The translations under genes and the position numbers were made by a program. Of a stretch of DNA of 64,000 nt, positions 17,574 to 36,351 are shown piece by piece. The notes below the pieces were generated by a model that saw only the letters and a program-made list of their open reading frames with translations, searched no databases and was not told where the DNA came from. How positions within the stretch are numbered: position 1 is the first letter of the stretch; each line of letters begins with the position of its first letter. The stretch spans positions 1-64,000 of the forward strand of contig JAFUHM010000082.1 of NCBI GenBank assembly GCA_017468865.1, read 5' to 3'. The stretch comes from Oscillospiraceae bacterium. GTDB taxonomy: Bacteria > Bacillota > Clostridia > Oscillospirales > Ruminococcaceae.

Positions 17574-18257
17574 ATGCCCAAGAAAATACTTATAGTGGAC
17601 GATGAGAAGAATATACGCAGCGTCATAGCCGAGTATGCGAAGTTTGAGGGATACGAGACCGCAGAGGCGGAGGACGGTATGCAGGCCGTGGATATGTGCC
17701 GCACCAATGATTTCGACCTGATAATCATGGATATCATGATGCCCCGTCTTGACGGCTATTCCGCAGTAAGAGAGATAAACAAGATAAAGAAGATACCCGT
17801 CATCATGCTCTCCGCAAGGGGTGAGGAATATGACAAGCTCTTCGGCTTTGAGCTGGGGGTGGACGACTATGTGACCAAGCCCTTCTCTCCGAAGGAACTG
17901 CTTGCCCGCATGAGAGCCGTCATCAAGCGCACCAGTGCGGAGGAGACGGCAGAGCAGCACGAAGTCCTCACCTTTGAGGGGCTTGAGATAGACATGATAG
18001 GCAGAGAAGTCCGTGTGGACGGTCAGACCGCACAGCTCACACCCAAGGAGTACGATCTGCTCTTCTACATGGTGCGAAACAAGGGCATCGCCCTTTCCCG
18101 TGAGAAGCTCCTCGAAGAAGTATGGGGCTATGATTTCTACGGGGACGACCGCACCGTTGACACACACATCAAGATGCTGCGCAATTCCATCGGTGAATAC
18201 CGCAAGTTCATCGTCACGCTGAGAGGAATGGGTTACAAGTTCGATGCAGGAAGATAG
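17574..18257 (+). CDS. OmpR/PhoB-family response regulator
   Basis: The 227-residue product has a receiver domain (1-120) with acidic pair DD at 9-10, phosphoacceptor D53 in DLIIMDIMMP, and VTKPFSP. It also has a winged-helix DNA-binding domain (about 130-225; LTPKEYDLLFYMV, DRTVDTHIKMLR, RGMGYKF). It overlaps the downstream kinase gene by 14 bp and is its cognate partner. AAAGGAGGCAAT precedes the ATG. Target genes are unknown; the 32-bp-spaced repeats upstream of its own promoter are a possible autoregulatory site. Confidence 0.94.
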   Translation: MPKKILIVDDEKNIRSVIAEYAKFEGYETAEAEDGMQAVDMCRTNDFDLIIMDIMMPRLDGYSAVREINKIKKIPVIMLSARGEEYDKLFGFELGVDDYVTKPFSPKELLARMRAVIKRTSAEETAEQHEVLTFEGLEIDMIGREVRVDGQTAQLTPKEYDLLFYMVRNKGIALSREKLLEEVWGYDFYGDDRTVDTHIKMLRNSIGEYRKFIVTLRGMGYKFDAGR

Positions 18258-19665: not shown

Positions 19666-19674
19666 ACATACGAT

Positions 19675-19701
19675 AAGCCCCATCGAACAGCGATGGGGCT
19701 T
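19675..19701. terminator. Bidirectional terminator between convergent genes
   Basis: AAGCCCCATCG and CGATGGGGCTT form an 11-bp perfect stem with a 5-base loop. The site lies between the kinase stop and the stop of the minus-strand LRR gene. Confidence 0.85.
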
Positions 19702-19716
19702 GATCTTTACTTTGGA

Positions 19717-21597
19717 TCAGGTAGTATAGAGAACTACGTCAGAATCCACGAGACCGCTTCTTACAGCGATAGCTCTTATCTCCTTGCCGCTTCCCACGGA
19801 AACTACGCAGTCGTTGGACCACTTGTTGTCCGTGCCAAGGGCGATCTTTCCGTTTACCACACGCAGCTTGTTGTCGATGCCGTGCTTTATCACGGGAGTC
19901 GTGCCGTCGGTGGTGTAGATGATGAAGGAGTCCTTGTCGGTGCAGAATATCCTGTACTTGTCGGTGCCGCTCTTTACCACTCTCGGTGTCACTATCTTGA
20001 TGTTGTTGAAGCCGTACTTGGATACGCCGTCGCTCCATGCACCGTTCTTGTAGGAACGGCAGTAGAGGGCATACTTGCCGGGGTCATCGATGTATACGGT
20101 GGTGCCGGGCTTGACGTGCTTGCTCTTGAGGGTGGTCGCAGATGTGCCTATCTCATAGTAGATCTCCACGCTGGGATCGGGGCAGTTGAATGTTACGAGT
20201 CTGCCGCCGAATACATGAGTAGCGGAGTATACGGGCTTAGCCACATAGGGCTTGTCTATGATTATTCTGGTAACAGGTCCCCATGCTCCGTCATCATATG
20301 CACGCAGATATACAGAACCGTAGTAGTAGCCGAAGTCAACGGTGCCGCCGTTTGCTACGCTCGGGTCATCCGTGGTAAGGGTGGAGCGGTTCTCAAGGGT
20401 GTAGTAGATGCGTACATCGGGATGATCCGAAGTGAGGACAGCCGATGTGCCCGTATCGGTCTTGGTCAGATCATAGTCAACTGTGGCATCGGTGCGGGCA
20501 GCCATTCCCAGAGGGCAGGTGATGTCGTAGCAGTAGCCGCTCCTGTTGAGGGGATAGTAGTACTTCTCATTTGTGGGAAGATCTCCTACTCCGGTATAAT
20601 CCGAGGCGAGAGTGCCGTTGGGGATGTGGATGTGGGTCAGGGGATCACCGTAGAACGCACGGTCTCCGATGTCGGTCACGCCCGAGGAAATGTCGAGGTA
20701 CTTCAGACGAGAGCAGTCAGCGAAGGCTTCCTTGTCTATCTTTGAGATATTTGCGGGGACGGTAAGAGCCTCAACTGCGGAGCAGTGAGCAAATACGCCC
20801 TCGGGAAGCACGCTTATGCCGCCGGGTATGTTTATCTGTGTGAGGGAGGAGCATCCGTCGAATGCGTGTACGCCTATGGTCTGCACGGTGTCGGGGATGT
20901 TTGCGTAGGTCATTGCGGAGCAGTCATAGAAGGCATATGCGCCGATGGTGGTAGTTCCCTCGGGGATGTCTATGCCCGTAAGACCGGAGCAGTTGTAGAA
21001 TGCACGCTCATCAACGGTGAGCAGGTTCTTGGGAAGTGTGACGCTGACAAGAGACGAATCGTTCTCAAAGGCAGACTTTCCTATCCTTGTGACAGCATCG
21101 GGTATCTGTGCGTTGACAAGACCTGCGCAGTTCTCGAATGCGAAGTCATCAATGACGGTCACGCTGTCGGGGAGGTCTATGTCCTCGAGCTTGCGGCAGT
21201 TGTTGAATGCGTACTTGCCGATGGTGCGCACCGTGTCGGGAAGTGATACATCTGTGATGGATGTGCAGTCAGCAAAGGCATAGTCGCCCACGGAGGTCAC
21301 GCCGTTGACATACACGACCTTTATCATATCACGGTATTTGTAGAAGGGGGAGGTGTGGAGAGCATAGTCTTCCATCTTGCCCGAGCCGGCGATGACCAGG
21401 TCGCCGTTGGTGTAGAGCTTCCATGTGGCGGAAGTGCCGCAGGTACCCTCATCCAGCTTTACCAAAGCGTTGAATACAGCCTCATCGGTGGAAAGCACCT
21501 CAGTCTGTGTCTCCTGTCCCTCTGCTCTGACTCCTGCGGCAGCGCTCATGCACACGCAGACAGCTGCAGCCAGGGCAGCCAGTTTCTTTTTGTTCAT
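19717..21597 (-). CDS. Secreted BspA-type leucine-rich-repeat protein
   Basis: The 626-residue product has a signal peptide (to about residue 26) and an N-terminal lead-in. About ten LRR_5 repeats follow (about 100-330; pattern I.vs.P.tVt.IG.yAF.nCs.L). The C-terminal half has the same FGGRxVTF and YIIYTTDGTxP modules as the two neighbouring surface proteins, the latter resembling chitobiase C-terminal (CHB_HEX_C_1-like) folds. There is no sorting motif or membrane anchor. A role in adhesion or substrate binding is likely but not shown. AAAGGATGGTTCG precedes the ATG, and a separate promoter lies at 21634-21662. Confidence 0.88.
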   Translation of the reverse strand: MNKKKLAALAAAVCVCMSAAAGVRAEGQETQTEVLSTDEAVFNALVKLDEGTCGTSATWKLYTNGDLVIAGSGKMEDYALHTSPFYKYRDMIKVVYVNGVTSVGDYAFADCTSITDVSLPDTVRTIGKYAFNNCRKLEDIDLPDSVTVIDDFAFENCAGLVNAQIPDAVTRIGKSAFENDSSLVSVTLPKNLLTVDERAFYNCSGLTGIDIPEGTTTIGAYAFYDCSAMTYANIPDTVQTIGVHAFDGCSSLTQINIPGGISVLPEGVFAHCSAVEALTVPANISKIDKEAFADCSRLKYLDISSGVTDIGDRAFYGDPLTHIHIPNGTLASDYTGVGDLPTNEKYYYPLNRSGYCYDITCPLGMAARTDATVDYDLTKTDTGTSAVLTSDHPDVRIYYTLENRSTLTTDDPSVANGGTVDFGYYYGSVYLRAYDDGAWGPVTRIIIDKPYVAKPVYSATHVFGGRLVTFNCPDPSVEIYYEIGTSATTLKSKHVKPGTTVYIDDPGKYALYCRSYKNGAWSDGVSKYGFNNIKIVTPRVVKSGTDKYRIFCTDKDSFIIYTTDGTTPVIKHGIDNKLRVVNGKIALGTDNKWSNDCVVSVGSGKEIRAIAVRSGLVDSDVVLYTT

Positions 21598-21669: not shown

Positions 21670-24300
21670 TTATGAGCCTGTCAGCCGTATGCGGAGTTCT
21701 TCACTGTCCGCAAAGCCGCTCCTTACACCTACCGCCCGTATCTTCATGCCCACGCTTCCGGGGATCATTGCCTTTCCCTTTACCCTTGTGCCGTTGGTCA
21801 TCGAGGGAGCGGTTTCATCGGTGGTGTATATGATGTAGCTTTCGGGAGTGGAGGAACCTATGACAAGGTATGTTCCCTCCTGTGAGACGGTGGGCTTGTT
21901 TACCGTGGGTATCTTGAGTATCAGCCGTGACACCGCCGACCATCTGCCCTTGTAATATGCCTTGGCATATACGGTGCAGTAGTCGTTGAACCTGACTGTT
22001 CCGCCTGCCTTCACGCTGCTGCATGACAGGCCTATGTCTGATGAGGAAGTCGAATAGTATATATCCGCATCGGAGTAATAGTTTTTGAATGTGACATCCC
22101 TGCCGCCGAAGGCATTTGTCACGCTGAAGGACGGCGGATAGAACAGGGTGTCAAATCTCATCTGTGTGCAGTCGCTGTTGGTAAAGCAGCTCCGCACCGC
22201 TATCGCACGCAGTATGGTGACTTCCGTCACATCCACGGATACCTTGCGGCTCGACCATATGCCGTTTGTCAGCGAAGGCTCCGTCCCGTCCGTGGTATAG
22301 ATGATGAAGCAGTCGGGAGTCGTGGTGGTGATGGTGCATATATTGCGGTTTTGGCTGATGACGGGGGTATTTACCTTCGGTATCTTCAGTATCAGTCTGC
22401 ACGGAACGCCCCAGATGCCGTCGATATATGTGCGTGCGTAGACCGTGCCGTAGTAGTCCTCAAACAGCACCGTATCGCCTGCCCTTACATGGGGGTCGTT
22501 TTCGGTGAGGGTGGAGGTGTTGGCTTGTGTATAGTAGATGAGCGCATCCTTGTGATCGGAGGAGAAAGTCACGTTCCTGCCGCCGAACACACCCTTGACC
22601 GTGAAGGACACGGCAGTATGCGCAAGGGTGATCTTGTTGTACTCACAGTTCGGATCGTCACAGCCGCCGAACCGGTCGAGCACATGGAATATATTTTCAT
22701 TCGCAGGCAGTCCGTACTTCCCTGCAAAGGCGGAGACTTCCGCACCGCTGTAAAGGTGGATATGGCTTATCACCGCATCCTGAAAGGCCGTATCGGAAAG
22801 CACTGCGCTCTCGGGTATGTATAATGTGGAAACGGATGTGCCTGCAAAGGCATTCTCTCCCACCGTGCAGCCCTCGGGGATGTCAAAGTATAAGAGGGAG
22901 AGGGAGCAGAATGCGTTATTTCCTATGCGGCTGCACTGCCCGTTAAAGACTATCTCCTTTATCTCATCGGCAGATCCCGTCCAGGGTGCCTCATCAAAGT
23001 CATACATCGCACCTGTGCCCGTCAGGGTGAGAGTCCCCTCGGAATATGACCATTCCATGTCATCGCCGCAGGAGCCGCTGCTTTCCGCAGGTCCATCGGG
23101 GGGATCGTCGGGGTCAGTCGGTCCAACGGGAGGATCATCACCCGGATCGCCGCCTGTGCCGCCGGGGGCTTCGCCGTAGTCATAGCTACATTCGGGAAGT
23201 GTCACCCCCGAGTACAGTACAAAGTCCTCATTCACGGTGTGCATACCGTTGCCGTCAAGTTCCTCAAATGAGGCGGTGGAGCGGTTGAGCCAATCGGGGT
23301 CGGTGCCTGTGGTGTCATACCATGTGGCATCGTATTCGTACCACACGCCGTCAAGTTTTATGCGGTTCCATGCGTGGGCTGTCGCCGCACTCCTGTGTGA
23401 AGTCACGAGAATGCTGTCCAGTCCCAACTTGCGGCAGAAGTAGTTCACCGTCATCGCATAGCCTGTGCAGACCGACTGCCCGTATATCATAGGGGTAAGT
23501 ATGGACTGATAGGTAAGAGGATTTCCGCTCTTATCGACTATGCCATCGTCCGACATCGCCCTGTAATCTACGTTCTCGGCGATGACCTTTGCGATGTTGA
23601 GTTCCTTTTCGGCGGCGGTGGTGCCTGCATCTATCTGTGCGAGCCATTCCTCTGCGACTGCATCTATCCTGTCCCTGAGGTCGTGCCTGTCGTCAGGGTC
23701 TCTGCAAGGGGTATTAGACATCAGCCCTATCTGCGATGGGTTGCTGCCGTTGGAATATCCCACCTGTGATGCCAGGTAGAAATATTCGGGGTTTGAGTAG
23801 AAAAATGCCCAGTAAGTCTGCAGAAGCTCATCAGACGTCATGGCGGCATCCACGGAGACTATGTTGAAAAATCCCTGACTTGTCACCGAACTCGTGTTAT
23901 CCGACATATACTGTGCGCAGGCATCCCCCAGGGCATCATACATCGTCTTCTGATCGTCCGACAGAAAATCATAGTAGAAGCCGTGGACGGAGTTTGATGA
24001 GCTCATGAATAAGGCTGTCTGCGTATCAAGGGGGCCCTCGCCCGCATCCTCGTTCGCCAGTGCGATGGCACGCTCAAGGATCTCAAATTCCTCGGGCGTA
24101 AGCTCTGTGCCATGGCAGCCGTCAGCCGATCCGCTTACCTTTTCACTGATGATCCTTGTCTGCTCGAGTATCTCTTCATCGCTCATATCCTCTGCCTGAG
24201 ATACGGGCGCCTGCTCCGTGACATCGGCGGATACCGATGTCACGAGGGAGGACATCAGAAGGGCTGCTGTTAATACAGATAATATCTTTCTCCGAGGCAT
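21670..24300 (-). CDS. Secreted transglutaminase-like / LRR / CHB_HEX-like repeat protein
   Basis: The 876-residue product has a signal peptide (to about 27) and a helical N-terminal domain shared with its upstream paralogue (ending near HGFYYDFLSDDQK). A transglutaminase-like domain (about 170-370) carries Cys in SVCTGYA, His in AHAWNRI and Asp in YEYDATWYD. After a Gly/Pro/Asp linker comes a short LRR region (about 420-540), then two A-B module pairs to the end (A: FGGRxVTF...LILKIP; B: VNTPxI...IIYTTDGTEPS...AVRSxFTNS). AAGGAGGTTTGT lies before the ATG, 10 bp after the stop of the upstream gene. It could be a cross-linking or proteolytic surface enzyme; the substrate is unknown. Confidence 0.88.
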   Translation of the reverse strand: MPRRKILSVLTAALLMSSLVTSVSADVTEQAPVSQAEDMSDEEILEQTRIISEKVSGSADGCHGTELTPEEFEILERAIALANEDAGEGPLDTQTALFMSSSNSVHGFYYDFLSDDQKTMYDALGDACAQYMSDNTSSVTSQGFFNIVSVDAAMTSDELLQTYWAFFYSNPEYFYLASQVGYSNGSNPSQIGLMSNTPCRDPDDRHDLRDRIDAVAEEWLAQIDAGTTAAEKELNIAKVIAENVDYRAMSDDGIVDKSGNPLTYQSILTPMIYGQSVCTGYAMTVNYFCRKLGLDSILVTSHRSAATAHAWNRIKLDGVWYEYDATWYDTTGTDPDWLNRSTASFEELDGNGMHTVNEDFVLYSGVTLPECSYDYGEAPGGTGGDPGDDPPVGPTDPDDPPDGPAESSGSCGDDMEWSYSEGTLTLTGTGAMYDFDEAPWTGSADEIKEIVFNGQCSRIGNNAFCSLSLLYFDIPEGCTVGENAFAGTSVSTLYIPESAVLSDTAFQDAVISHIHLYSGAEVSAFAGKYGLPANENIFHVLDRFGGCDDPNCEYNKITLAHTAVSFTVKGVFGGRNVTFSSDHKDALIYYTQANTSTLTENDPHVRAGDTVLFEDYYGTVYARTYIDGIWGVPCRLILKIPKVNTPVISQNRNICTITTTTPDCFIIYTTDGTEPSLTNGIWSSRKVSVDVTEVTILRAIAVRSCFTNSDCTQMRFDTLFYPPSFSVTNAFGGRDVTFKNYYSDADIYYSTSSSDIGLSCSSVKAGGTVRFNDYCTVYAKAYYKGRWSAVSRLILKIPTVNKPTVSQEGTYLVIGSSTPESYIIYTTDETAPSMTNGTRVKGKAMIPGSVGMKIRAVGVRSGFADSEELRIRLTGS

Positions 24301-24310
24301 ACAAACCTCC

Positions 24311-27007
24311 TTATCTTGTACCGAAGCTTATCTCCTCACTGTTGGTAAAGGCACTTCTTACAGCTATCACACGGAAGATCATGCCCGATCTGCCGGGGAC
24401 TGCAAGAGGAGCTTTTCCTCTCGTACCGTTGGTTATCACACCGTTTTCAACGGTGGGAGCAGTTCCGTCAAGCGTGTATACGATGTAGCTGTCGGGGGTT
24501 GCGGTGGTAAGGATGATATATCCGTTTGATATGGATGCTGTGGGCTTTGCGACCACAGGGATCTTGAGGATCAGCTTCGATACGTTTGACCACTGTCCGT
24601 TGAGGTATGCCTTTGCATACAGTGTGCCGTAGAAGTCTTCAAAGAGTATCGTCTCGCCTGCCTTCACATGGGCATCGGTGAGCTTGATGTTTGAAGTTGT
24701 GGTGGAATAGTAGATATCGGCTGTGCCGTAGTTGCAGTTGAATGTCACGTTCCTTCCGCCGAATACGCCCTTTACGGCGAACTTGGGTGCTTCAAGGTTC
24801 GTGCTGAACACCTTTTCGGCTATCTCACTGTTGGTAAAGCAGGAGCGTATCGCCCTTGCACGGAGCACGGGGACGCCCGTGATGTCTACCTCTGCCTTGT
24901 TGTATACCCTCGTGCCGTGATCGGGAGTGGGTTCTGTGCCGTCTGTGGTGTACACGATGTAGCACAGGGGAGTAGTCGTGGTTATCTCGGCAGTATTGCC
25001 GGTGATGTTGATGGTGGGTGTGTTTATGTTGGGGATCTTGAGTATCAGGCGGCAGGGAGTGCCCCATATGCCCTTGTAGTATGTGCGTGCGTAGATCGTG
25101 CCGTAGAAATCCTCAAAGAGCACCGTCTCCCCTGCCTTGACATGAGCATTGGAAGTGGTGAGCGCCGAAGTGCCTGCGGCATAGTAGATCTCTGCCCCAT
25201 TTACTGCGGAATTGAAGGTCACGTTCCTTCCGCCGAACACGCCCTGAACCGCAAAGGATACAGTCGCCTTCTTCAGTGCAGCCGCACTGTGAGGGCAGCT
25301 CACGTCATCGCACAGACCGTCGGCAGAGAGAACATGGAAGTATCCCGTGTAGGAGGGAAGCCCGTATCTGCCCGCATAGCTGTAAATATTCGATCCGTAG
25401 GGAAGGTGTATATGGGTCAGAGGGCATCCGTAGAATGCGTTCGTGCCGAGCACAGCCCCCGCAGGGATGTCAAGGCTCGTGAGCTTCGTGTTCGCAAAGG
25501 CATAATTGGCTATGTAGCTCACATCAGGGAGTGTCACAGACGTGACGGCGCATCCGCTGAACGAATTGCTGCCTATGCCCGTTAGTCCGTCGGGGAGCAC
25601 AATGGAGGTGATCTGTGAGGCATATGAGCTCCAGGGAGCAGTCTCATAGTCATACATATCCCCTGTGCCTGTGATGGTGAGGGTGCCGTCAGCAAATTCC
25701 CACCGCAGGTCATCGCCGCATTTGCCGCTGGTAGATACGGCTCCGTCGTCGCCCGGCTTGTAGTCATCGGGGCAGTCGGGGAGGGTGATGCCCATGTACA
25801 TATTATTCTGTGCGGCAGTCTCCACCACATGGTTGTTGTACTGGTCTATGGCAAGCATGGATGCGGTGGAGCGGTTGACAAAGCTGCTGTCAAATCCCAT
25901 AGTGTCGAACCATGTGGGATCTGTCTCGAACCACTTGTCGCCGAACCTTACCCTGTTCCATGCGTGGTCGGCAGAGGTGACGATTATCGTCTCTATGCCC
26001 ACCTTGCTGCACAGGTATGAGAATGTCAGTGCATATCCCGTGCAGACGGAGCGTCCGAAGTACATGGGTGCAAGTATGGACTGATAAGACTCATAGTTCG
26101 TGTCGTAGGTGGTCTTCTGAGCGATGAGCTCGATTATCTTGTATGCCTTCTCCACAGGTGAGGAGCACTTGTTCACTTCCGTGAGCCATGTCGATGTAAG
26201 GGAGTCTATGCTGTTCTTTAAAGACTGTCTGTCGGATGCCTTGCGGCAGTTGTCGTAGGATGCCAGATAGAGCCTGAGACTTCCCGAATTGGTATTCATC
26301 GCCCACACGGGCTTGAGGAAGAAATACCGGGGATTGGAGTGGAAGAACAGCTGGAATACCTGTGATACATCCACCTGATTTGTCTTGTTCAGGTCGATGG
26401 CGACAGATGCGAACCAGCCGCTGCTTTCCGTGGTATCCGTGCCGCTGTTGAGATATGTCTCACAGACATCGCCCAGTGTGTCATACAGTGCCTGCTTGTC
26501 TGCGGAGAGCTGATCGTAGTAAAAGCCGTGTTCGCAGTTGGATGCGCTCAGGTATACGGCGGACTCCACATCAAGGCCGTCCGTCTCTGCCTGTCCCGTG
26601 ACATATCCGATGGCACGGTCAAGTATCTGCGCTTCCTCGTCGGTGATCTCCGCACCGTATGTGCCTACCCCGTCAAAGTCGAGCTTTCGGCTTATCTCGG
26701 CGGTCTTGGCGATGATATCATCGATGCTTTCCGTATCCCCGACAGCTTCCTGTGTGACTTCCGCCTCGACAGGTGTGCTTTCCTCGGTGACTTCGGCAGG
26801 TGCGTTTTCTTCGGAAGTTTCCGCAGGGACGCTTTCTTCGGTCACTTCGACAGGTGCGCTTTCTTCGGAGGCTTCGGAAACTGCGCTCTCCGCCACGGGA
26901 ACGGCAGCCTGCGCAGCGATGCTTTCCGTATCGGCGAATACCGATGAAGCGGCAGTCTTCATCATTGCAAGTGCAAGGACGAATGAAAGGGTCTTCTTTA
27001 CGTTCAT
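24311..27007 (-). CDS. Secreted transglutaminase-like / LRR / CHB_HEX-like repeat protein, paralogue
   Basis: The ATG at 27007 follows GAGGGAGAGTG, 4 bp after the stop of the pyruvyltransferase gene; the longer frame upstream lies inside that gene. The 898-residue product has a signal peptide and a repetitive acidic segment of four 9-residue EESxPxExx units. It continues with the same N-terminal, transglutaminase-like (SVCTGYA, DHAWNRV, ETDPTWFDT), LRR and double A-B module layout as its neighbour. The tight spacing ties it to the glycan genes. Secretion is by Sec; no sorting signal was seen. Confidence 0.88.
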   Translation of the reverse strand: MNVKKTLSFVLALAMMKTAASSVFADTESIAAQAAVPVAESAVSEASEESAPVEVTEESVPAETSEENAPAEVTEESTPVEAEVTQEAVGDTESIDDIIAKTAEISRKLDFDGVGTYGAEITDEEAQILDRAIGYVTGQAETDGLDVESAVYLSASNCEHGFYYDQLSADKQALYDTLGDVCETYLNSGTDTTESSGWFASVAIDLNKTNQVDVSQVFQLFFHSNPRYFFLKPVWAMNTNSGSLRLYLASYDNCRKASDRQSLKNSIDSLTSTWLTEVNKCSSPVEKAYKIIELIAQKTTYDTNYESYQSILAPMYFGRSVCTGYALTFSYLCSKVGIETIIVTSADHAWNRVRFGDKWFETDPTWFDTMGFDSSFVNRSTASMLAIDQYNNHVVETAAQNNMYMGITLPDCPDDYKPGDDGAVSTSGKCGDDLRWEFADGTLTITGTGDMYDYETAPWSSYASQITSIVLPDGLTGIGSNSFSGCAVTSVTLPDVSYIANYAFANTKLTSLDIPAGAVLGTNAFYGCPLTHIHLPYGSNIYSYAGRYGLPSYTGYFHVLSADGLCDDVSCPHSAAALKKATVSFAVQGVFGGRNVTFNSAVNGAEIYYAAGTSALTTSNAHVKAGETVLFEDFYGTIYARTYYKGIWGTPCRLILKIPNINTPTINITGNTAEITTTTPLCYIVYTTDGTEPTPDHGTRVYNKAEVDITGVPVLRARAIRSCFTNSEIAEKVFSTNLEAPKFAVKGVFGGRNVTFNCNYGTADIYYSTTTSNIKLTDAHVKAGETILFEDFYGTLYAKAYLNGQWSNVSKLILKIPVVAKPTASISNGYIILTTATPDSYIVYTLDGTAPTVENGVITNGTRGKAPLAVPGRSGMIFRVIAVRSAFTNSEEISFGTR
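26766..26873 (-). repeat. Four 27-bp tandem repeats inside the transglutaminase-like gene
   Basis: Units start at 26766, 26793, 26820 and 26847 and encode four 9-residue blocks of type EESxPxExx just after the signal peptide. The period keeps the frame, so copy number could vary without loss of the protein. Confidence 0.8.
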
Positions 27008-27011
27008 GTTA

Positions 27012-28217
27012 TCACTCTCCCTCAAGTCTGAACTTATGAGAAATACCGTTTTCTTCAAGGTATCTTACATACTCTTCCGTCAGTTTCTTTGAGTTTTTCG
27101 CAAAGCTGCTGTAATCGCAGAATTCCAGCAGGTCTTCCGCATATTTGTATTTTGCGGCTTTGGATATGGGGATGTGGGGCAGATGCAGAGTCTGCACCAG
27201 CTCCGATGTGCGGCTGTCATGGGTCAGCCAGAGGGCGGGGATGCCGCTCCTGAATGCCGCCATGTTCCCGTGGAAGCGTGACCCGTAGGCAAATGTAAAG
27301 CCGCTCTCCCTCAGATATCTGTTCCACTTGTCCATGTCAAAGAAGATGTGTCCGTGTTTTGAGACATACTTGTTGTACTGCTCCACGCTTGCCTTGCAGC
27401 CCGGGAATGCGGTATCCACGGGAGTAAGGTCGGGTATCTCCGTCGCCATCTGCATTATCATCTCCGAACGGCTCCTCATGCCCATTTCAAGGAGCCTGCT
27501 CTCATGCTCCGACCTTCCCGTGACCGAGATCAGGGTCTTCTGTGCGGAGGGCGCAGGCAGGGGAGCAAAGCTCCCGTCAAGGGTCCTGTATGCCGTGGGG
27601 CAGCCTATTATGCGGTAGTTGTGTATCCCCATTATCTCCAGACATTCAGCGGTGAACTCGCCCCTGACTCCAAGGGAGACCGCACGCTGGGCAGCTCTGC
27701 GGAAGAAGGTGATCTTGTTCTCTCCCAGGGCTTCCACCAGCTTCTTCGGAGTGTCGTATTCGGATGAGGACTGCGCCCCAAGCCCCGCCATGGTGATATT
27801 GCACTTCGTATGCTCATACAGTGACTTCATGGCATCTATCATGCTGTCCGAACCGGGGTTGAGGAAGTTCGATGCGGGGATGACCGCCACAGCACCGCCG
27901 TACACCTCATATCCGTGGAGCTTGCGCCCGTTGAACCAGATGACATCCTTGATGTCCACCTGTTCCTTTACGGCGCTCACAAACAGCATATTGCCCGTAT
28001 TTGCCCCTGCCGCACGGAGTTTGTCCCCTATGGGTGACTCATCATCCTTCAGTGAGATGATAGGGTCGATGACCACGGTATTGCCCGCAGGCTTTATGAA
28101 ATCATGCCTTTCGGCGATCTTTGCCTCGGTGACCGCCTGTGAGCCGTTGAACGTCCATGCGGGCTCAGGGGCAGGGGAGGCTTTTCTGAGCCTCGGGAGA
28201 AATCTCTTTATATTCAT
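27012..28217 (-). CDS. Polysaccharide pyruvyl transferase family protein
   Basis: The 401-residue protein resembles the C-terminal third of the preceding giant protein almost throughout. Shared landmarks are DTPKKLVxAL, LGxRGEFTAECLxIMGIHNY, RIIGCPTAY, YGSRFHGNM and LWxTHDSRTxELV. The GSRFHGNMAAFRSGIPALW ending is typical of PF04230 pyruvyltransferases, which transfer pyruvate ketals from PEP to glycans. The ATG overlaps the previous stop (ATGA) behind GAGGG, so the two are translationally coupled. Pyruvylation is inferred from family; the acceptor sugar is unknown. Confidence 0.83.
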   Translation of the reverse strand: MNIKRFLPRLRKASPAPEPAWTFNGSQAVTEAKIAERHDFIKPAGNTVVIDPIISLKDDESPIGDKLRAAGANTGNMLFVSAVKEQVDIKDVIWFNGRKLHGYEVYGGAVAVIPASNFLNPGSDSMIDAMKSLYEHTKCNITMAGLGAQSSSEYDTPKKLVEALGENKITFFRRAAQRAVSLGVRGEFTAECLEIMGIHNYRIIGCPTAYRTLDGSFAPLPAPSAQKTLISVTGRSEHESRLLEMGMRSRSEMIMQMATEIPDLTPVDTAFPGCKASVEQYNKYVSKHGHIFFDMDKWNRYLRESGFTFAYGSRFHGNMAAFRSGIPALWLTHDSRTSELVQTLHLPHIPISKAAKYKYAEDLLEFCDYSSFAKNSKKLTEEYVRYLEENGISHKFRLEGE

Positions 28218-31200
28218 ATATCCCTCACAGTAAGTCCGTTCTCTTCCAGATAGGATCTGTATTCGGAGCAGAGCTTCGGGTATGCCTTGTAGAAATCGGA
28301 GTAATCGCAGTATTCGAGCATTTCTTCCGCATTTGTCATGCTGCGGAATTTCTCAAAGGTGATGTGGGGCAGATGCAGTGTGTCCACAAGTTCTCTCGTG
28401 CGGCTGTCGTGGGTTATCCACAGAGCAGGTATGCCGCACAGCATAGCGGACATATTCCCGTGGAAGCGGCTGCCGTAGGAGAAGGTGAATTTGCCCTCAT
28501 TCATGAACCTGTTCCAGTCATCCATGTTGAAGAATATATGGCCGTGAGCCTTGACGAACTCGATGTACTCATCCTTCGTCATGCCAAGATCGGGAAGTCC
28601 CCTGACAAATGTTTCATCAGACGGGACAACGCCTTCGAGTATCTCGGGCATTTCCGTAGGCATCTGCATCAGCAGCTCCGAGCCGTTGTCACGTCCGAAG
28701 CGGACGAGGGCGCTCTCCATGGGGGTTTTGCCCGTCACGGTGAATACGGTGCGGTCAGCCTTCGGAGCGGGAAGCTCCCTGTATTTTCCGTCCATGTACT
28801 TGTAAGCCGTGGGACAGCCTATTATGCGGTAGTTGTGTATGCCCATGATGTCAAGGCATTCCGCCGTGAATTCGCCTCTGATGCCCAGAGAAACGCATCT
28901 GTCCCCCGCCATGCGGAAGAAGTTCTTCTTGCTTTCGGAAAGGGCTGCCACCAGCTTCTTCGGGGTATCGTTCGGCGGATAAGCCTGGGCTCCGAGTCCC
29001 GACATGGTGATGCAGCAGTCCGTGCCCTCATATATGGGACGGATAGCATCGATCACTCTGTCGGAGCCTGCGATGATGAGGTTTGTCGCAGGTATGACAG
29101 CGGAGACAGTGCCCTTTTCACGGCCTTTGAGGATATTGCTGTTGAACCAGACAGCATCGGTGAAGTCAAGCTGATCCCTTGTGGCTTTGACAAACAGCAT
29201 ATTGCCCGAGTTGCCGCCCGAATAGATCATCTTCTGCTGAGAGTCCGCATCGGGATGCTCATAAAGCCCCATGATAGGGTCTATCAGTATCGTGTCGCCG
29301 CCGGGAAGGAGCTTCTCACGCTGACGGGCGGCGAGCCTGTCGGCGGTCTTTCTGTCATGCACGAACCGCATTGCCCCGTCCACGCTGTAAAGCTTCTCAA
29401 AGTCCTCATCCGAGCCGCTGACGTGCTGATGGTAGAAGCGGCGGATCTTGGCGTTGTTGCGCTCTATGACACTGCGTTCGGTGTGGTAGAGATTGCGTAT
29501 GATGGAGGCTATCTTTGCGTGCTCGGTATAGTAGGTGTCGTTTGTGTAGGTCTTTGCCGAGGAATTGTTTGAATGGAAGCGGAAGTAGCTGGTGGTGTCC
29601 GCAGTATAAGCCACCTTGCCGCCCTTTATCACATTGAGGTAGAATTCCCAGTCGCCGCAGATCTTCATCCTATACCAGTCCTCATCCTCAAATACGGGGA
29701 GAGAGACATCCCTGCGGAAGACAGCACCCGATGCGTTGGGTATGGTGTTTATGATGCCCAGAGCGGAAGCGACTTCGTCCTCAGCGTCATTGACATAGCT
29801 GTGATGCCACTTGTCATCGCTGACAGCGCTCATGTATGCGTCAAATCCCTCTTCATTGCGGCGGCCGTTCTCGTCCACAAAGCAGTAGCGGCAGTAGCTG
29901 AGCTTGACGTCCCTGTCCTCAAAAGCAGGCAGGACGCACTCCAGGAAGTCACGTTCGCAGAAGTCGTCGCTCTCTGCTATCCAGCACAGATCGCCCTTAG
30001 CGCTCTGTATGCCCTTCGCCCACTGACGGAACACGCCGCCGGAATTTTTCTCATTGAAGAGGATGCGTGCCTTGTCGGGATACTTTTCGGCATAGGAAGT
30101 CAGCAGCTCACGGCTGTTGTCCGAGGAGCAGTCGTCCATAAGGAGGACATCTATATTCGGGTAGGTCTGACCGAAGATGCAGTCAAGCCTTTCTTTGAGA
30201 AATCTTTCGTGGTTGTAGTTGGGGACGATGACCGTCACCAGAGGGTCTGTCCCGTTCTCACCCTTCACCAGCATATCCAGGCGGCATTCTTCACTTCGGA
30301 TGATATCCGGTATCAGAGGAGCGCCTGTCTTGGCGAAGCAGTCAGCATAAATGGACAGATATTCTCTTGTCACGCTGTCTATCTCGTATACACGGGACTT
30401 CTTTTCGGCGGTGCGCACCGCCTTGTCATATGCCTTTTTATCCGTCACAAGGCGGACGAGCCTTGCGGTCAGATCGTCGTCATCCACGGTGAAGTCCTCC
30501 ATGGGGGACACATCGCCTGCCGGTTCACCCTCAAAGGTGAGCATATCACGCACATCGCCGATGTCCGTGGCAAGGCAGGGCTTTGAGCACATCATCGCCT
30601 CTATAAGGCACAGGGGCGCAGATTCGCTCACATAGTAGGAGGGGAGCGTCACCAGATCGGATGCCACCATATAGTCGCAGGGGTTCTCACGGAAGCCTAA
30701 GAAGTGTATGTGGTCATTTGACAGTGTCTGACTGTATTCATCGTAGACTTCGCCGTCTCCGATGAGCAGCAGATGGATATCCCTGCCCGTTATCTCACGG
30801 GCTCTCTCCACGGCATTGACCGCATTGAGCCAGCCCTTTTCCTTCTTGGCACGGCTGACGATGCACACGGTAAAGCTGTCCTTGCCTATGCCGAATGAGG
30901 ACAGATCGACAGGGGAAGTCTTCGGCCGCTCCATGCCGTTGGGCACCTTGCGGAAGGTCTTCTCGTCATAAACATTGTAGTCGGTGAAGGGGACAAGGTT
31001 CTTGTCCGCCACATATGTCCAGCGGTCGGTATTGCTCATGAGAGGGGAGTTTACCAGCAGATAATGCAGTAACGGTTCAGGCAGGTTCTCATACATACCG
31101 TGGGATGTAGCCACGTTGAGGACTTTCTGCCTGAGCACGGGATAGAGATCAAGTGCCTCTGCCGCCCTCTGCTGTGATGCCTGATGATGGGAGTGATACA

Positions 31201-33112
31201 CCTGTACGCCGAGACTTGCCATATACATGGCGGTGTTTGCCTTGTCCGATGCGTAGACCACGGGTATCTCGGGCAGGAGCATTGCACGGACCTTCTCATC
31301 ACGCTCGGACTTCTGAAGGATATGCACCGTCACATTATGTCCCATTCGGTAAAGGGAGTTTGCCAGTCTGATGGGCATTATCTCGCCGCCGCCGAAGGTG
31401 AAGGCATATATGCCTATCATGATATCCATGCCGTCCCCGATGATGTCGGATGTTTTGAAACTGCGGGCGAATTCGGCGTAGCCTGTCTTTGCGGCAGCCG
31501 CATCACGGAAGATGCGGTATGCCGCCCCCGTCTTGTCCGTGTCATTGAAGAAGCCGTGGAAGAGTATCTTCCCGAGCCGCTTGAAGTATTCGGTATCGTC
31601 GGAGAATTTCTGTTCTGATGCGCCATCGGCATACGCCCCTACGATGCCGCCTCTGATGCAGGAGAGCGTGAGCAGGGTAAGATCCTGCCCGTCTGTTATC
31701 TCGGGAAACTGCTCAAAGAGGGCGAACTTGGCTGGGTTGCGCAGCACGATGTCGGAAAGGCCGTAGTATCTGCCTCTGACAAGGCCGTCTGTAAATCTTG
31801 CGTCCTTGTAGGAGAGCAGAGCGGTGTTCTCGGTGCCGTTTACAAGGCTCTCATCACGCACGGCGGCATATATGCATTCGGTCTTCAGGAGCGGCAGTAT
31901 GTCTTCGGGGAAGTCTGCCGTGCCGTCACAGATGAAAATGAAGTCGCCCGTCGCCTTTGCTATGGCGGCCTTGATGCCCTCATCAGCGGGGATGATCTCA
32001 TCCGCCTTTCCCTTGTATACCGCACCGTTCACGGTGATGACGGATACCGTGGCGGTCTTCCCCTCGATGGTGTTGAGAGTCAGTGTCCGCTTGAAAGGCA
32101 CCTTGAACAGGGAAGTGTCCGCACAGACACGGTGCTCTGCCTTCCCGTACTTTACATAGTGGGCAAAGGGTACGAGATAGGGGTCGGACATAAGGTCGGG
32201 ATTGTGGTTGATATAGAAGGATGTGGAGAAATCGGGGGAAGGATCCCTGTCCTCATACATCCCCTCGCTGATATAGTGAAGTGCGGCGGTAGTCATGAGC
32301 CTGCCTGCCGTCTGTATTATCTTGTTGTCCGAAAGGCGCATCTTCCAGCCGACGGTGGAGGATATCTTCTTGTACACGTCGGGATTCTGGTCGAGATACC
32401 AGCCCCCGTCAAACATACCGCTGCGCAGTATGTCCGCAAGATCCTTCATCTCATGAGCCTTCACCGCAGGGCCTGTCTGCATCCTGCGCATAGTCACCCA
32501 TTCGGAATACAGGTCGCTCTCCCTTCCGCCGGGCAGCTTGGACGGCCGCCTTTCAGCCCGTCCCGCAATGATGTAGTGATACAGGGGATTGAGATGGGCA
32601 GAGCGTATGTCCTCGTTGCTTTCGAGGTAGTAGGAATTGTCAAAGTAGGGCGAGGGGTCCTTGTCCTCGTATGCGCCGTTGGCGGCATAGTAGGAGAGCA
32701 GGGAGCACTTCGGGAGCTTGTCGAACTGGGCTGCGTAGTACTTCTCGTCGAACAGGCCGCTGTTTTGGATGGTCTTCATTATCTTGTGAAGATCATCCTT
32801 CTTCGGACGCTTTCTCATGCGTGGCCTGGGGAGACGTCCCTCTGCCTTGCCGTGGCAGATATAGTGATAAAGGGGATTGACCCCCGCCTTCCTGACATCG
32901 GCGTATTTCTTCAGATAATATGACTGGTCAAACTTGGGGGACGGGTCCCTGTCCTCCTCGAGTGCGTGGAGCAGATAGTATTCGATCAGATCCCCTTCGG
33001 GCACCTTGTCGAACTGACGGGCATAGTATTCCCTGTCAAACAATCCGCTCCTGTCTATCTTATAGACTTCTATCTGCAGCTTGATATTCCTCATTGCAAC
33101 CCCCGTGATCAT
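28214..33112 (-). CDS. Giant multidomain glycosyltransferase with C-terminal pyruvyltransferase domain
   Basis: The 1632-residue cytoplasmic protein has several regions. Residues 20-335 hold three long repeats with DPSPxFDxSYYLxxNxD...NPLYHYIxxGxAExR. Residues 345-550 contain a degenerate GT2-like segment (GDFIFICDGTADFPEDIL). Residues 557-860 form a GT4-like domain (GGGEIMPIRLANSLYRMGH, SRAKKEKGW, ESAPLCLIEAMMCSKPCLA). Residues 955-1190 form a GT2 domain (VTVIVPNYNHERFL, MDDCSSDNS, IAESDDF). Residues 1267-1632 form a pyruvyltransferase-like domain. The ATG overlaps the ABC ATPase stop (ATGA); an alternative ATG at 33094 has GGGGG before it. The context indicates synthesis of a glycan exported by the adjacent ABC transporter. 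A fusion of this size is unusual. Confidence 0.88.
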   Translation of the reverse strand: MITGVAMRNIKLQIEVYKIDRSGLFDREYYARQFDKVPEGDLIEYYLLHALEEDRDPSPKFDQSYYLKKYADVRKAGVNPLYHYICHGKAEGRLPRPRMRKRPKKDDLHKIMKTIQNSGLFDEKYYAAQFDKLPKCSLLSYYAANGAYEDKDPSPYFDNSYYLESNEDIRSAHLNPLYHYIIAGRAERRPSKLPGGRESDLYSEWVTMRRMQTGPAVKAHEMKDLADILRSGMFDGGWYLDQNPDVYKKISSTVGWKMRLSDNKIIQTAGRLMTTAALHYISEGMYEDRDPSPDFSTSFYINHNPDLMSDPYLVPFAHYVKYGKAEHRVCADTSLFKVPFKRTLTLNTIEGKTATVSVITVNGAVYKGKADEIIPADEGIKAAIAKATGDFIFICDGTADFPEDILPLLKTECIYAAVRDESLVNGTENTALLSYKDARFTDGLVRGRYYGLSDIVLRNPAKFALFEQFPEITDGQDLTLLTLSCIRGGIVGAYADGASEQKFSDDTEYFKRLGKILFHGFFNDTDKTGAAYRIFRDAAAAKTGYAEFARSFKTSDIIGDGMDIMIGIYAFTFGGGEIMPIRLANSLYRMGHNVTVHILQKSERDEKVRAMLLPEIPVVYASDKANTAMYMASLGVQVYHSHHQASQQRAAEALDLYPVLRQKVLNVATSHGMYENLPEPLLHYLLVNSPLMSNTDRWTYVADKNLVPFTDYNVYDEKTFRKVPNGMERPKTSPVDLSSFGIGKDSFTVCIVSRAKKEKGWLNAVNAVERAREITGRDIHLLLIGDGEVYDEYSQTLSNDHIHFLGFRENPCDYMVASDLVTLPSYYVSESAPLCLIEAMMCSKPCLATDIGDVRDMLTFEGEPAGDVSPMEDFTVDDDDLTARLVRLVTDKKAYDKAVRTAEKKSRVYEIDSVTREYLSIYADCFAKTGAPLIPDIIRSEECRLDMLVKGENGTDPLVTVIVPNYNHERFLKERLDCIFGQTYPNIDVLLMDDCSSDNSRELLTSYAEKYPDKARILFNEKNSGGVFRQWAKGIQSAKGDLCWIAESDDFCERDFLECVLPAFEDRDVKLSYCRYCFVDENGRRNEEGFDAYMSAVSDDKWHHSYVNDAEDEVASALGIINTIPNASGAVFRRDVSLPVFEDEDWYRMKICGDWEFYLNVIKGGKVAYTADTTSYFRFHSNNSSAKTYTNDTYYTEHAKIASIIRNLYHTERSVIERNNAKIRRFYHQHVSGSDEDFEKLYSVDGAMRFVHDRKTADRLAARQREKLLPGGDTILIDPIMGLYEHPDADSQQKMIYSGGNSGNMLFVKATRDQLDFTDAVWFNSNILKGREKGTVSAVIPATNLIIAGSDRVIDAIRPIYEGTDCCITMSGLGAQAYPPNDTPKKLVAALSESKKNFFRMAGDRCVSLGIRGEFTAECLDIMGIHNYRIIGCPTAYKYMDGKYRELPAPKADRTVFTVTGKTPMESALVRFGRDNGSELLMQMPTEMPEILEGVVPSDETFVRGLPDLGMTKDEYIEFVKAHGHIFFNMDDWNRFMNEGKFTFSYGSRFHGNMSAMLCGIPALWITHDSRTRELVDTLHLPHITFEKFRSMTNAEEMLEYCDYSDFYKAYPKLCSEYRSYLEENGLTVRDI

Positions 33113-33843
33113 TTCTTCTTCCGCACGTCATCGTTGTATATCTTCAGTCCCTCTTCCACATCGCCGTCAAAGGCGACCTTGCTGTCCTTGATGTATATGA
33201 CACGGTCGCAGAACTGTCGGATAAGGGCATCGGAATGCGATGAGAAAAGCACCGTCTTCCCCGCATTGAAAAGCTCGGTCGTCTTTGCCTTCGATTTCTC
33301 CTGGAAATTCTTGTCCCCCACGGCAAAGACTTCATCTATGATGAGTATGTCGGGATCTGTGAATACCGCCAGTGCAAAGCCCAGACGTGCGGACATACCC
33401 GATGAGTACATCCTCAGAGGCAGATCGATATATTCTCCGATGTCCACAAATTCGATTATGTCATCGATGACCGAGTCTATCTCCTTTTCCGACCTGCCCG
33501 TGAGCATCCCCTTGTAGTAGAGGTTCTTCCTTCCCGTGAAGTCGGGATTGAAGCCTGCGGAAAGGTTGATGAAGGAGCCGACTTTGCCGTGAACTTCCAC
33601 CGATCCCCATGTAGGGAAGGTGATGCCTGCGATGAGCTTCATCAGGGTGGATTTGCCTGCGCCGTTCTTCCCGATGAGTCCCACTCTTTCGCCCTTCTTT
33701 ATCTCCAGGCTGATGTGGTCAAGGGCTGTCTTCTCAGCCTTGCATCCCTTCTTGGTGAAGAGCCACGGGAGTATGTGATAATCCTTGTTGAAAAGGTAGA
33801 ATGTCTTGGTAAGCTCTTTTATGGTAATTGCGTTCTCACTCAT
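33109..33843 (-). CDS. ABC-2 glycan exporter, ATP-binding subunit (Wzt/TagH type)
   Basis: The 244-residue ATPase has Walker A GKNGAGKST, the family's FINLSAGFNPDFTGRKN segment typical of O-antigen/teichoic-acid exporters, signature YSSGMSARL and Walker B ILIIDEVFAVGD. It ends without the C-terminal glycan-recognition domain of long Wzt proteins, so chain-end recognition is not by this subunit. It pairs with the permease seven bp upstream and is translationally coupled to the giant glycosyltransferase. Confidence 0.93.
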   Translation of the reverse strand: MSENAITIKELTKTFYLFNKDYHILPWLFTKKGCKAEKTALDHISLEIKKGERVGLIGKNGAGKSTLMKLIAGITFPTWGSVEVHGKVGSFINLSAGFNPDFTGRKNLYYKGMLTGRSEKEIDSVIDDIIEFVDIGEYIDLPLRMYSSGMSARLGFALAVFTDPDILIIDEVFAVGDKNFQEKSKAKTTELFNAGKTVLFSSHSDALIRQFCDRVIYIKDSKVAFDGDVEEGLKIYNDDVRKKK

Positions 33844-33850
33844 AATTGCC

Positions 33851-34654
33851 TCAGATCACATCGGAATAGTATCTTCTCAGCTTGTACTGTACAAAGCTGC
33901 CCATTGAGAACAGGAGTACCGTGCATATCCAGAAATATGCGGTATATTTCGCCGTGGGCAGGACACCTGTCACAAATGCGCTCCTGAAGCCGTTGAATAT
34001 ATATACCATGGGATTTATCTTGACTATGGTCATTATGGCAGGGTATTTCTCTATATGCTTGTATCCCCATACGATGGGCATAGTGTACAGCATAACACGG
34101 ACAAACATCAGATAGAACTGATGAAGGTCGGTGGATACCGCAATAAACGCCGATACGAACAGGGTCAGCGAATACATGAGCAGAAGCAGGCACAGCATGA
34201 AGTAGATAAACAGCAGGGGATGGAAGCTCCCTATGTAGCCGTAGTAGATGCACACCGCAAAGATGAACAGGAAGGTGGGGAGCCTTTTGAGGAATATGGC
34301 TGTCACCTCCACCGAGGGAAGTATGGTTATGGGGAATTTCAGGCTCTGGATTATCGGTTTGTTGTTGCGGATTGCTGCCGCTCCCTGGTTGAGCACCTCA
34401 CTTATGAAGAACCAGGGGATGAGTCCGCTCATCAGGTATACCACGCTGTTGATGCCGTCTATCTGACCTGTGCCCGACATGAGTATCCTGAATGCGCAGA
34501 ATACGAAGAAGTATAAAAAATCATGCAGATACACCCAGAAAACGCCGAGCGATGTCCTGAGTGTCTGTTTGGACATATTGACAACTGCCATTTTGAGCAG
34601 CAGCTTGCGGTTGCTGATATGTTCATTTATGACATACCGTATTGCTTCAAACAT
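33851..34654 (-). CDS. ABC-2 glycan exporter, permease subunit (Wzm/TagG type)
   Basis: The ATG at 34654 follows AAAGGAGATATC; the open frame extends further but into the promoter. The 267-residue protein has an amphipathic N-terminus with LGVFWVYLHDFLYFFVF, six hydrophobic segments, and the ABC-2 features SLKFPITILPSVEV and the late IVKINPMVYIFNGFR. With the ATPase it would move an undecaprenyl-linked polysaccharide or wall polymer across the membrane. It is the first gene of the minus-strand glycan operon. Confidence 0.92.
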   Translation of the reverse strand: MFEAIRYVINEHISNRKLLLKMAVVNMSKQTLRTSLGVFWVYLHDFLYFFVFCAFRILMSGTGQIDGINSVVYLMSGLIPWFFISEVLNQGAAAIRNNKPIIQSLKFPITILPSVEVTAIFLKRLPTFLFIFAVCIYYGYIGSFHPLLFIYFMLCLLLLMYSLTLFVSAFIAVSTDLHQFYLMFVRVMLYTMPIVWGYKHIEKYPAIMTIVKINPMVYIFNGFRSAFVTGVLPTAKYTAYFWICTVLLFSMGSFVQYKLRRYYSDVI

Positions 34655-34727
34655 GATATCTCCTTTGTGTTTCATCCTGTTCATCCGTGTCCGGCAGGGA
34701 TATCCCCTGACGGACATCTCTGCCTTG

Positions 34728-34756
34728 ATTATACCATAATCATAGGTGTTTGTCAA
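34728..34756 (-). promoter_or_regulatory. Consensus promoter of the glycan operon
   Basis: Minus strand TTGACA (34756-34751), 17 bp, TGG-TATAAT (34733-34728), a perfect consensus promoter 74 bp above the permease ATG. Confidence 0.88.
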
Positions 34757-34759
34757 GGT

Positions 34760-34859
34760 CAACATTGACAGGAAGGGGGCGGCGGGAGCTGTACTGCGGA
34801 CGGACAGGGGGCGCCGTTCAAATTATTTCTTGTTTCTAAGCAAAGTGTTGTCAATGTTG
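34760..34859. promoter_or_regulatory. Distant 11-bp inverted repeat between divergent promoters
   Basis: CAACATTGACA (34760-34770) and TGTCAATGTTG (34849-34859) are perfect reverse complements, 78 bp apart. One lies just upstream of the glycan-operon -35 and the other about 48 bp upstream of the -35 of the divergent gene. They could be paired operator sites or chance. Confidence 0.5.
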
Positions 34860-34906: not shown

Positions 34907-34935
34907 TTGACAAAATTGGAAAAATATGGTATAAT
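34907..34935 (+). promoter_or_regulatory. Consensus promoter of the PH-like/SHOCT gene
   Basis: TTGACA (34907-34912), 17 bp, TGG-TATAAT (34930-34935). The expected transcript start near 34942 makes the ATG at 34948 almost leaderless and favours the ATG at 34984. Confidence 0.88.
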
Positions 34936-34983
34936 CAAAGTAGAATAATGTCTATTGTCAGCTACGACAGATCGGAGCGAATT

Positions 34984-36351
34984 ATGGCAGCTAATACTCA
35001 GAGTTTTACCAGTGTATACCAGGAAAAGAAAATTGCGGGATATGAGGGCTGGTTCAAGGAGTCATCCTTTTCCAAGCCTGTAAACGTGTATCTCACCATC
35101 ACCGTGGCTCATATTTTCGGTGAAGCATATATCATGGAGCAGGAGGGCACTCAGGAGAATGATCCTATCTATCAGCGGTTCATTTGCCCCCTTGAGGAGA
35201 TAACCAAGGTATATGTGAATGACGGCGTAAAGTCCACACCCCTTTTCATACAGTGCGATACCGACGTCAAGGGCATAGTTCACCGCAAGCGCATAATCAT
35301 TCCCTGCCTTGAACATCCCCAGGACATCGTCAATGAGATAGAGAAGGTGCGTGCGGCTCATACTGCCAAGATAGAGCAGGCACTCGAGGCGGAGCGCAAG
35401 CGCAAGACCGCAGCAGCAGTCGCCAATGCCGAGAAGAAAAAGGCTCAGAAGTCGGCTCCTGCTGAAAAGGCAGCCGAAAAGCCCGTCGAGGCTCCCGAAG
35501 TGAAGGAAGAGATCACCGCCGCACAGGTCAGCGCACCCAAGGCGGAAGAGCCTTCTGTCATCCCCTCACTGCCCAAGCTCGATCCCGTGATCGAGGCGGC
35601 TGTACAGGCAAGGATGAGCGGCGACGCAGCTGAGCCTGTCAAGGACATCCGCACGGTGCTCGACGAGGATCTTGAAAAGGATCTCAAGGCGCTTGAAAAG
35701 ATCTCCGCAGGCATACCCGACGGCAAGAGCGATGACATAGAGGAGATCAGGGCTTCAAAGAAGAAGCCGCCCAAGGTAAAGCCTGCCGAGGCGGATGATG
35801 TGCCCGAGATAGAGCAGACCGAGAAGCGTCCCAAGCTGCGCAAGGCAAAGAGCGACATCCCCGATGAGGTGGAGGAACTCACCCATGAGGAGATGATGAT
35901 AGCTTCACAGTCGATAAACGACATCCCTGCGCCTGCCGAAGTGATAAACGAGGTCGAGGAGATCTCAGGCGATGCGGACGCACTTCCCGAACTGGCACAG
36001 CGTCCCGATGAACTGGCGGAGATAGAGCTTCCCGAGACCACCGAGGAGATATCCCCTGCCTATGAACAGCCCGTAAGCTACGATATCCCCGATATAAGCG
36101 AGCCTGTATTCACGGTACCCGAACCCGCACCCGTACAGCCCGAGCCCGAAGAGACCGCCGCTGAGCCTGCCGCAGTGGAGACTGCTCCCGAGCCTGCACC
36201 GGTGAGAAAGAGCGTGACGCCTGCGGTACACACAGGAGGGCTTGCCTCCTTCGAGGAAGCTGTGGTGGCACTCAACGAGCGCCGCATGAAGGGCGAGATC
36301 ACGGAGGAAGAGTACGCAGCGCAGCGCAGACAGCTCGTTGCGGGACTGTAA
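34984..36351 (+). CDS. PH-like / acidic linker / SHOCT protein of unknown function
   Basis: The 455-residue product begins at the ATG preceded by GGAG, six bases upstream. Residues 1-125 look like a bacterial PH-type beta domain followed by a helix (PLEEITKVYV, HRKRIIIPCLEHPQDIV). Residues 125-410 are Ala/Glu/Pro/Lys-rich and probably disordered. The last 35 residues (SFEEAVVALNERRMKGEITE) match a SHOCT motif, often found at the ends of membrane-associated or oligomerising proteins. There is no signal peptide. It is divergent from the glycan operon. Function unknown. Confidence 0.8.
   Translation: MAANTQSFTSVYQEKKIAGYEGWFKESSFSKPVNVYLTITVAHIFGEAYIMEQEGTQENDPIYQRFICPLEEITKVYVNDGVKSTPLFIQCDTDVKGIVHRKRIIIPCLEHPQDIVNEIEKVRAAHTAKIEQALEAERKRKTAAAVANAEKKKAQKSAPAEKAAEKPVEAPEVKEEITAAQVSAPKAEEPSVIPSLPKLDPVIEAAVQARMSGDAAEPVKDIRTVLDEDLEKDLKALEKISAGIPDGKSDDIEEIRASKKKPPKVKPAEADDVPEIEQTEKRPKLRKAKSDIPDEVEELTHEEMMIASQSINDIPAPAEVINEVEEISGDADALPELAQRPDELAEIELPETTEEISPAYEQPVSYDIPDISEPVFTVPEPAPVQPEPEETAAEPAAVETAPEPAPVRKSVTPAVHTGGLASFEEAVVALNERRMKGEITEEEYAAQRRQLVAGL

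Follow-up and report, generated by a model that had tools for sequence, protein, structure and literature searches.

The window analyzed here, a stretch of 64,000 nucleotides from one contig of an Oscillospiraceae genome (G000; 2.19 Mb, 97.8% complete), carries a minus-strand operon in which predicted genes for making and exporting a glycan are followed directly by genes for large secreted proteins. This arrangement raises the question of whether one operon encodes both a surface glycan and the proteins displayed on it and, if so, through which part of the proteins they are held. Gene organization, domain families, conservation of likely PEP-binding residues, placement of a C-terminal module, and its phyletic dependence on the glycan genes together give about an even chance that proteins carrying this module dock non-covalently on a pyruvylated glycan made by the operon.

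The operon opens with a perfect sigma-70 promoter at 34756-34728 on the minus strand (TTGACA-17-TATAAT, 12/12, with TG before the -10 element). The genes 3' of it encode a Wzm-type permease, a Wzt-type ATPase, a 1632-residue glycosyltransferase (GT), a pyruvyltransferase, and two transglutaminase-LRR proteins, A and B, with successive junctions of 7 bp, a 4-bp overlap, a second 4-bp overlap, 4 bp, and 10 bp. An earlier note on this DNA had described a single consensus promoter and six genes in this order, with 4-bp overlaps or gaps of 4 to 10 bp; the promoter match, the spacing (-4 to +10 bp), and the order, as seen from the open reading frames and Pfam, all agree with it. The Wzm reading frame opens at 34765, within the promoter, and the likely start is the ATG at 34654, which follows an AAGGAG Shine-Dalgarno sequence; the ATG of protein A lies 4 bp past the stop codon of the preceding gene. 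The six genes are present as described, but the note had overlooked a seventh, at 19717-21597, which encodes another protein with the module and with a signal-peptide-like N terminus. It is separated from the gene for protein B by 72 bp containing a weak hairpin and a promoter-like site (10/12), so it may or may not belong to the operon transcript. There are also two pyruvyltransferase domains, as claimed, but one of them is the C-terminal domain of the 1632-residue enzyme. The features are as follows.

34728..34756, minus strand: sigma-70 promoter, 12/12, TG-extended (from the sequence)
33851..34654, minus strand: Wzm-type ABC permease of 267 aa, counted from the ATG that follows AAGGAG (PF01061; start from the sequence)
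33109..33843, minus strand: Wzt/TagH-type ATPase, short, without a carbohydrate-binding domain (PF00005, NCBIfam)
28214..33112, minus strand: 1632-aa multidomain enzyme with N-terminal Tyr-rich repeats, GT4, GT2, and PS_pyruv_trans (Pfam)
28223..29296, minus strand: fused pyruvyltransferase domain of the 1632-aa enzyme (Pfam)
27012..28217, minus strand: free pyruvyltransferase (PS_pyruv_trans), 54% identity to the fused domain (Pfam, alignment)
24311..27007, minus strand: secreted protein A, with a transglutaminase-like domain, short LRR_5, and two C-terminal modules (Pfam, module profile)
24803..25267, minus strand: C-terminal module A1
24323..24793, minus strand: C-terminal module A2, adjoining the stop codon
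21670..24300, minus strand: secreted protein B, with a transglutaminase-like domain, short LRR_5, and two C-terminal modules (Pfam, module profile)
22150..22617, minus strand: C-terminal module B1
21679..22140, minus strand: C-terminal module B2, adjoining the stop codon
19717..21597, minus strand: seventh gene; its product is a secreted BspA-LRR protein carrying a full and a partial copy of the C-terminal module (Pfam, module profile)
19726..20241, minus strand: C-terminal module of the seventh protein, long subtype
19674..19701 (approximate), minus strand: strong hairpin 3' of the seventh gene, possible terminator

Both flanks of the operon carry features of their own. The promoter stands back to back with a second perfect 12/12 TG-extended sigma-70 promoter (34907-34935, plus strand), which precedes a divergent gene (34948-36351) whose product has a SHOCT-like C terminus. 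At the other end, genes for a response regulator of the OmpR/PhoB type and a kinase resembling WalK/PhoR (17574-19665, plus strand) are convergent with the operon.

The exporter is recognizable by its domains. The permease matches ABC2_membrane (PF01061, 4.7e-8) and the ATPase ABC_tran (PF00005, 6.6e-22), both over the Pfam cut-off, and the top NCBIfam matches for the transporter are the TagH and galactan Wzt models, both under their equivalog cut-offs. A Wzm-type permease adjoining a Wzt/TagH-type ATPase is the arrangement of ABC-transporter-dependent glycan export. The C-terminal carbohydrate-binding domain of Wzt, which is confined to exporters of capped chains, was not found in the 244-aa ATPase, which consists of the ATPase domain alone. 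In the 1632-aa enzyme, Pfam detects GT4 (about 1e-18), GT2 (about 1e-25), and a C-terminal PS_pyruv_trans domain (4e-7), and the Tyr-rich N-terminal repeats have no Pfam match. Neither an initiating transferase nor a wall ligase was located, which counts against docking on a glycan made here.

The two transglutaminase-LRR proteins bear matches to Transglut_core (2.2e-9 and 2.9e-7) and LRR_5 (3.1e-14 and 2.2e-6), as the earlier note had read them, but the LRR part is short, at 62 to 74 residues. Their common C-terminal module, which the note had already distinguished from SLH, defines a family of about 157 residues with a longer subtype of about 173, and Pfam scans uphold that distinction. Its AlphaFold model consists of two consecutive beta-sandwiches with a mean pLDDT of 90. 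The first sandwich resembles Fn3 domains in general. The second half matches CHB_HEX_C_1/Fn3_assoc over the Pfam cut-off, and its best structural match is an accessory domain of an Akkermansia glycosidase (8ayr; Z 11.3 over 71 residues, rmsd 1.6).

G000 contains 13 matches to the module on eight contigs, and in the wider inventory the module is joined to unrelated domains, among them LRR, transglutaminase-like, and GH88 domains. Among the distinct module proteins whose 3' ends are complete, 27 of 33 end within 10 residues past the module, and the other six continue beyond it. No LPXTG motif or C-terminal hydrophobic stretch occurs in the inventoried module proteins, and the three window proteins match no NCBIfam sorting-signal model. 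Neither SLH nor CWB2 turned up when the operon proteins and nine further module proteins were scanned with Pfam, and the scans of A, B, and the seventh protein retrieved no dockerin; one module protein of G520 has an internal dockerin. The C-terminal placement, the varied proteins that carry it, and the lack of an LPXTG motif or hydrophobic end are together what one would expect of a domain for sorting or anchoring. Another protein of G520 (L165 7565-11515) combines the module with both transglutaminase-like and glycoside hydrolase family 88 domains. Where modules stand in tandem in G490 and G520 (L118, L160-L169), first and second modules fall mostly into separate clades, so each of the two positions has kept an identity of its own.

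Both the module and the pyruvyltransferase family were searched across about 700 genomes in three panels: 20 genomes of the genus, 394 of the order, and 295 relatives of a rabbit genome, G151. A single-protein search with the free pyruvyltransferase gave just three loci, so profiles were used instead. Within the genus, which includes an Oscillospiraceae genome from sheep rumen, both were present only in G000 and G015, with one weak module match in G012. Across the order, strong matches of either were restricted to G000. Among the relatives of G151, a strong pyruvyltransferase-GT was found in G150, G151, G480, G490, and G520, and strong modules in G151, G490, and G520. Strong module matches thus number 13 in G000, 23 in G015, 6 in G151, 8 in G490, and 12 in G520, with none in any other searched genome. 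With the profile of module A2, the best E values are 1e-59 or lower in the module genomes searched with it and no better than about 1e-17 in others; the weaker matches elsewhere are mostly partial and internal.

The core (Wzm, Wzt, and the GT with its pyruvyltransferase domain) is therefore found in all five genomes with strong modules, and the module in five of the seven genomes with the core; G150 and G480 have a strong core and no recognizable module. In an RpoB tree, in which an implausibly long branch (G031) was ignored and G015, lacking an RpoB match, was placed by its genus label, the strong-module genomes fall into three separated lineages, each with close relatives that lack both module and core (G000 against G001, G002, and G014; G490 and G520 against G518, G482, and G497; G151 against its near neighbors G475-G478). 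A hypergeometric estimate gives about 1e-11 by genomes and about 1e-5 by lineages. Both figures are rough, since the number of lineages (170) was chosen manually on the basis of how many genera there are, relatedness was crudely handled, and G151 had entered its panel for carrying the core. That the independent lineages number only three counts against docking. In G151, G490, and G520, the module genes lie on contigs other than that of the core, so hitchhiking on a single island does not suffice to explain the pattern. For a domain at the C terminus that is present in many copies, only in company with a glycan cassette and yet unlinked to it, binding to that glycan is the likeliest explanation. 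A third gene that tracks both could also explain the two distributions, and most of the genomes are draft assemblies of uncultured bacteria, so absences weigh less than presences.

G150, G480, G490, and G520 share the order Wzm-Wzt-GT(pyruvyl) in differing surroundings, and the contig of G151 holds the 3' part of the GT only. In G015, pieces of the operon lie on three contigs (Wzm-Wzt-GT; GT-pyruvyltransferase-transglutaminase; a module tail followed by an LRR gene), and this recurrence indicates that the arrangement is not due to chance. Only G000 and G015 have transglutaminase genes beside the core. The one 3' of the pyruvyltransferase in G015 is closer to protein B (53%) than to A (39%), so A could have arisen by later duplication, or G015 could have lost it. 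The neighborhood conservation anticipated in the earlier note therefore holds, also outside the genus, for the core, but not for the exact six-gene order; six-gene synteny is too strict a test, as only the three-gene core travels. The Wzt proteins of G000 (33109-33843) and G150 (L004 5757-6497) are 81% identical, against 66% for RpoB, which suggests horizontal transfer of the core.

Other neighbors of the core differ from genome to genome. In G151 (L005 3602-5913), a LytTR response regulator and a GHKL histidine kinase come after the core GT and may regulate the cassette. In G480 (L159 1420-6332), two very similar BspA-LRR proteins with dockerin-like C termini adjoin the core in convergent orientation. 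A diverged module was sought in the LRR proteins of G150 and G480, and these end in dockerin-like and other C termini, with no module. That like surface proteins seem to carry different attachment modules in different bacteria, with dockerins in Ruminococcus flavefaciens and dockerin-like ends in G480, supports the module as an attachment device, and the presence of the core without it in G150 and G480 implies other uses or a different partner for the glycan.

Whether the glycan would carry pyruvate depends on the two PS_pyruv_trans domains, which are the only matches of a PF04230 search of this genome; both are over the Pfam cut-off, the free protein at 5.6e-10. Mutagenesis of Paenibacillus alvei CsaB placed PEP at R148, H308, and K328, with R306 nearby (PMC10435577). 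Aligned with Escherichia coli WcaK and a diverse set of relatives, the family retains the Arg of LGxRG, the motif GxRFH, and, within DSRTxEL, a basic residue that is Arg here and Lys in WcaK. The conserved Arg, the R-x-H pair, and the basic residue likely correspond to the PEP-binding residues of CsaB, an assignment of columns that is our own reading, as the alignment held WcaK and relatives and not CsaB itself. These domains might instead have an activity other than ketal-pyruvyl transfer, in which case the module may still dock on the glycan, with something other than pyruvate as the epitope. That would fit the PDB search with the pyruvyltransferase profile, which found no relative by sequence, and the AlphaFold model of modest confidence (pLDDT 70), which is GT-B-like and in fold searches resembles GT-B enzymes in general. 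Pvg1p (5ax7) is not among the fold matches listed, an absence to be read with the model's pLDDT of 70 in mind. Since the residues aligned with the PEP contacts of the characterized family are kept throughout (PMC10435577), we regard another activity as unlikely.

Two further explanations concern the link between module and glycan. The operon could make an anionic capsule or wall polymer; the transglutaminase-LRR proteins would be adhesins or peptidases with no relation to it, co-transcribed only in this genus, and the module could be an adhesion or multimerization domain that the same gut bacteria acquired by gene transfer. The cores without a module in G150 and G480, the confinement of transglutaminase neighbors to G000 and G015 with other neighbors elsewhere, and the horizontal movement of the core seen from Wzt (81% against 66% for RpoB, G000 and G150) all speak for this; the core in all five strong-module genomes, with close relatives having neither (roughly 1e-5 by lineages), and the separate contigs of module and core in three genomes speak against it and leave it rather unlikely. 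Covalent glycosylation, in which the exported glycan would be joined to module proteins with the module as acceptor or recognition site, is a serious rival. The co-occurrence fits it equally well, and the core closely resembles the wzm-wzt-wsaE locus for Geobacillus S-layer glycans (PMC2943079). However, no oligosaccharyltransferase is found among the operon or scanned flanking genes, the module is modeled as a well-folded domain, and its invariant columns look structural, so we consider glycosylation quite unlikely.

Non-covalent docking would then proceed as follows. In the cytoplasm, the GT4 and GT2 domains of the core would build up a glycan polymer on a lipid carrier, and the fused and free pyruvyltransferases would decorate or cap it with pyruvate from PEP. 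The ABC transporter would export the anionic glycan, which would end up at the cell surface, and proteins with one or two modules of about 157 aa would leave by the Sec route. The module would hold them non-covalently on the glycan, in the manner of SLH on the CsaB-pyruvylated polymer and CWB2 on PSII. The operon would supply clients of its own, the transglutaminase-LRR and LRR proteins, with others scattered over the genome. We infer glycan synthesis, pyruvylation in vivo, surface location, and docking alike from sequence. The idea of a pyruvylated glycan made together with the proteins it displays, put forward in the earlier note, gains from the export-coupled locus, the retention of likely PEP-binding residues, and a module that follows the core in three lineages, and is weakened by the cores of G150 and G480 that lack the module. 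A broader proposal, to which we give slightly less than even weight, is that the Fn3/CHB_HEX pair is a previously undescribed C-terminal anchor of gut Firmicutes that binds the glycan of a mobile Wzm-Wzt-GT-pyruvyltransferase cassette and, in whole sets of surface proteins, does the job otherwise left to dockerins, SLH domains, or sortase. A literature search for the module or the gene set, with most subscription journals outside its coverage, returned nothing relevant.

Several known systems share parts of this design. Ruminococcus flavefaciens has a head-to-tail operon of transglutaminase-like and LRR proteins with C-terminal dockerins (PMC2930009); secreted genes of the same kinds stand head to tail with a common C-terminal part here as well, but this part is the Fn3/CHB_HEX pair rather than dockerin, and the operon includes glycan genes. 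The PEP-CTERM sorting domain was inferred from its phyletic match to polysaccharide genes (PMC1569441) and likewise is a multi-copy C-terminal domain on varied secreted proteins; in contrast to that PEP-CTERM/EpsH system, the module has no transmembrane tail, and no exosortase-type enzyme was identified. In the slg locus of Geobacillus, wzm, wzt, and the gene for trifunctional WsaE, which has two glycosyltransferase domains and a capping methyltransferase, overlap (PMC2943079). The S-layer glycans made by this set are presumed to be passed on to the S-layer protein. The overlapping Wzm, Wzt, and multidomain glycosyltransferase with its own capping or modifying domain are common to both. Here that domain is a pyruvyl rather than a methyl one, no oligosaccharyltransferase was seen, and the clients are not known to be glycosylated; by analogy, pyruvyl may play the capping role of the WsaE methyltransferase domain.

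The closest precedents for docking are CWB2 and SLH. Clostridioides difficile CWB2 docks on PSII (PMC4973711), with tandem modules and an anionic surface polymer from a dedicated locus, as proposed here; the domain here is unrelated, without a CWB2 match, and the polymer genes are others. SLH domains with a CsaB-pyruvylated secondary cell wall polymer (PMC6030368, PMC10435577) share with the present system a predicted pyruvyltransferase, repeated wall-binding domains at the protein end, and many clients per genome. They differ in that the domain here is an Fn3/CHB_HEX-like sandwich pair and one pyruvyltransferase is fused to a glycan synthase beside an ABC exporter. A domain that tracks one glycan cassette over unlinked loci and separate lineages makes a concrete pair; if the two do bind, they would add a further pairing of folded domain and anionic glycan beside SLH and CWB2, and the module might serve as a display tag in Firmicutes of the rumen and gut.
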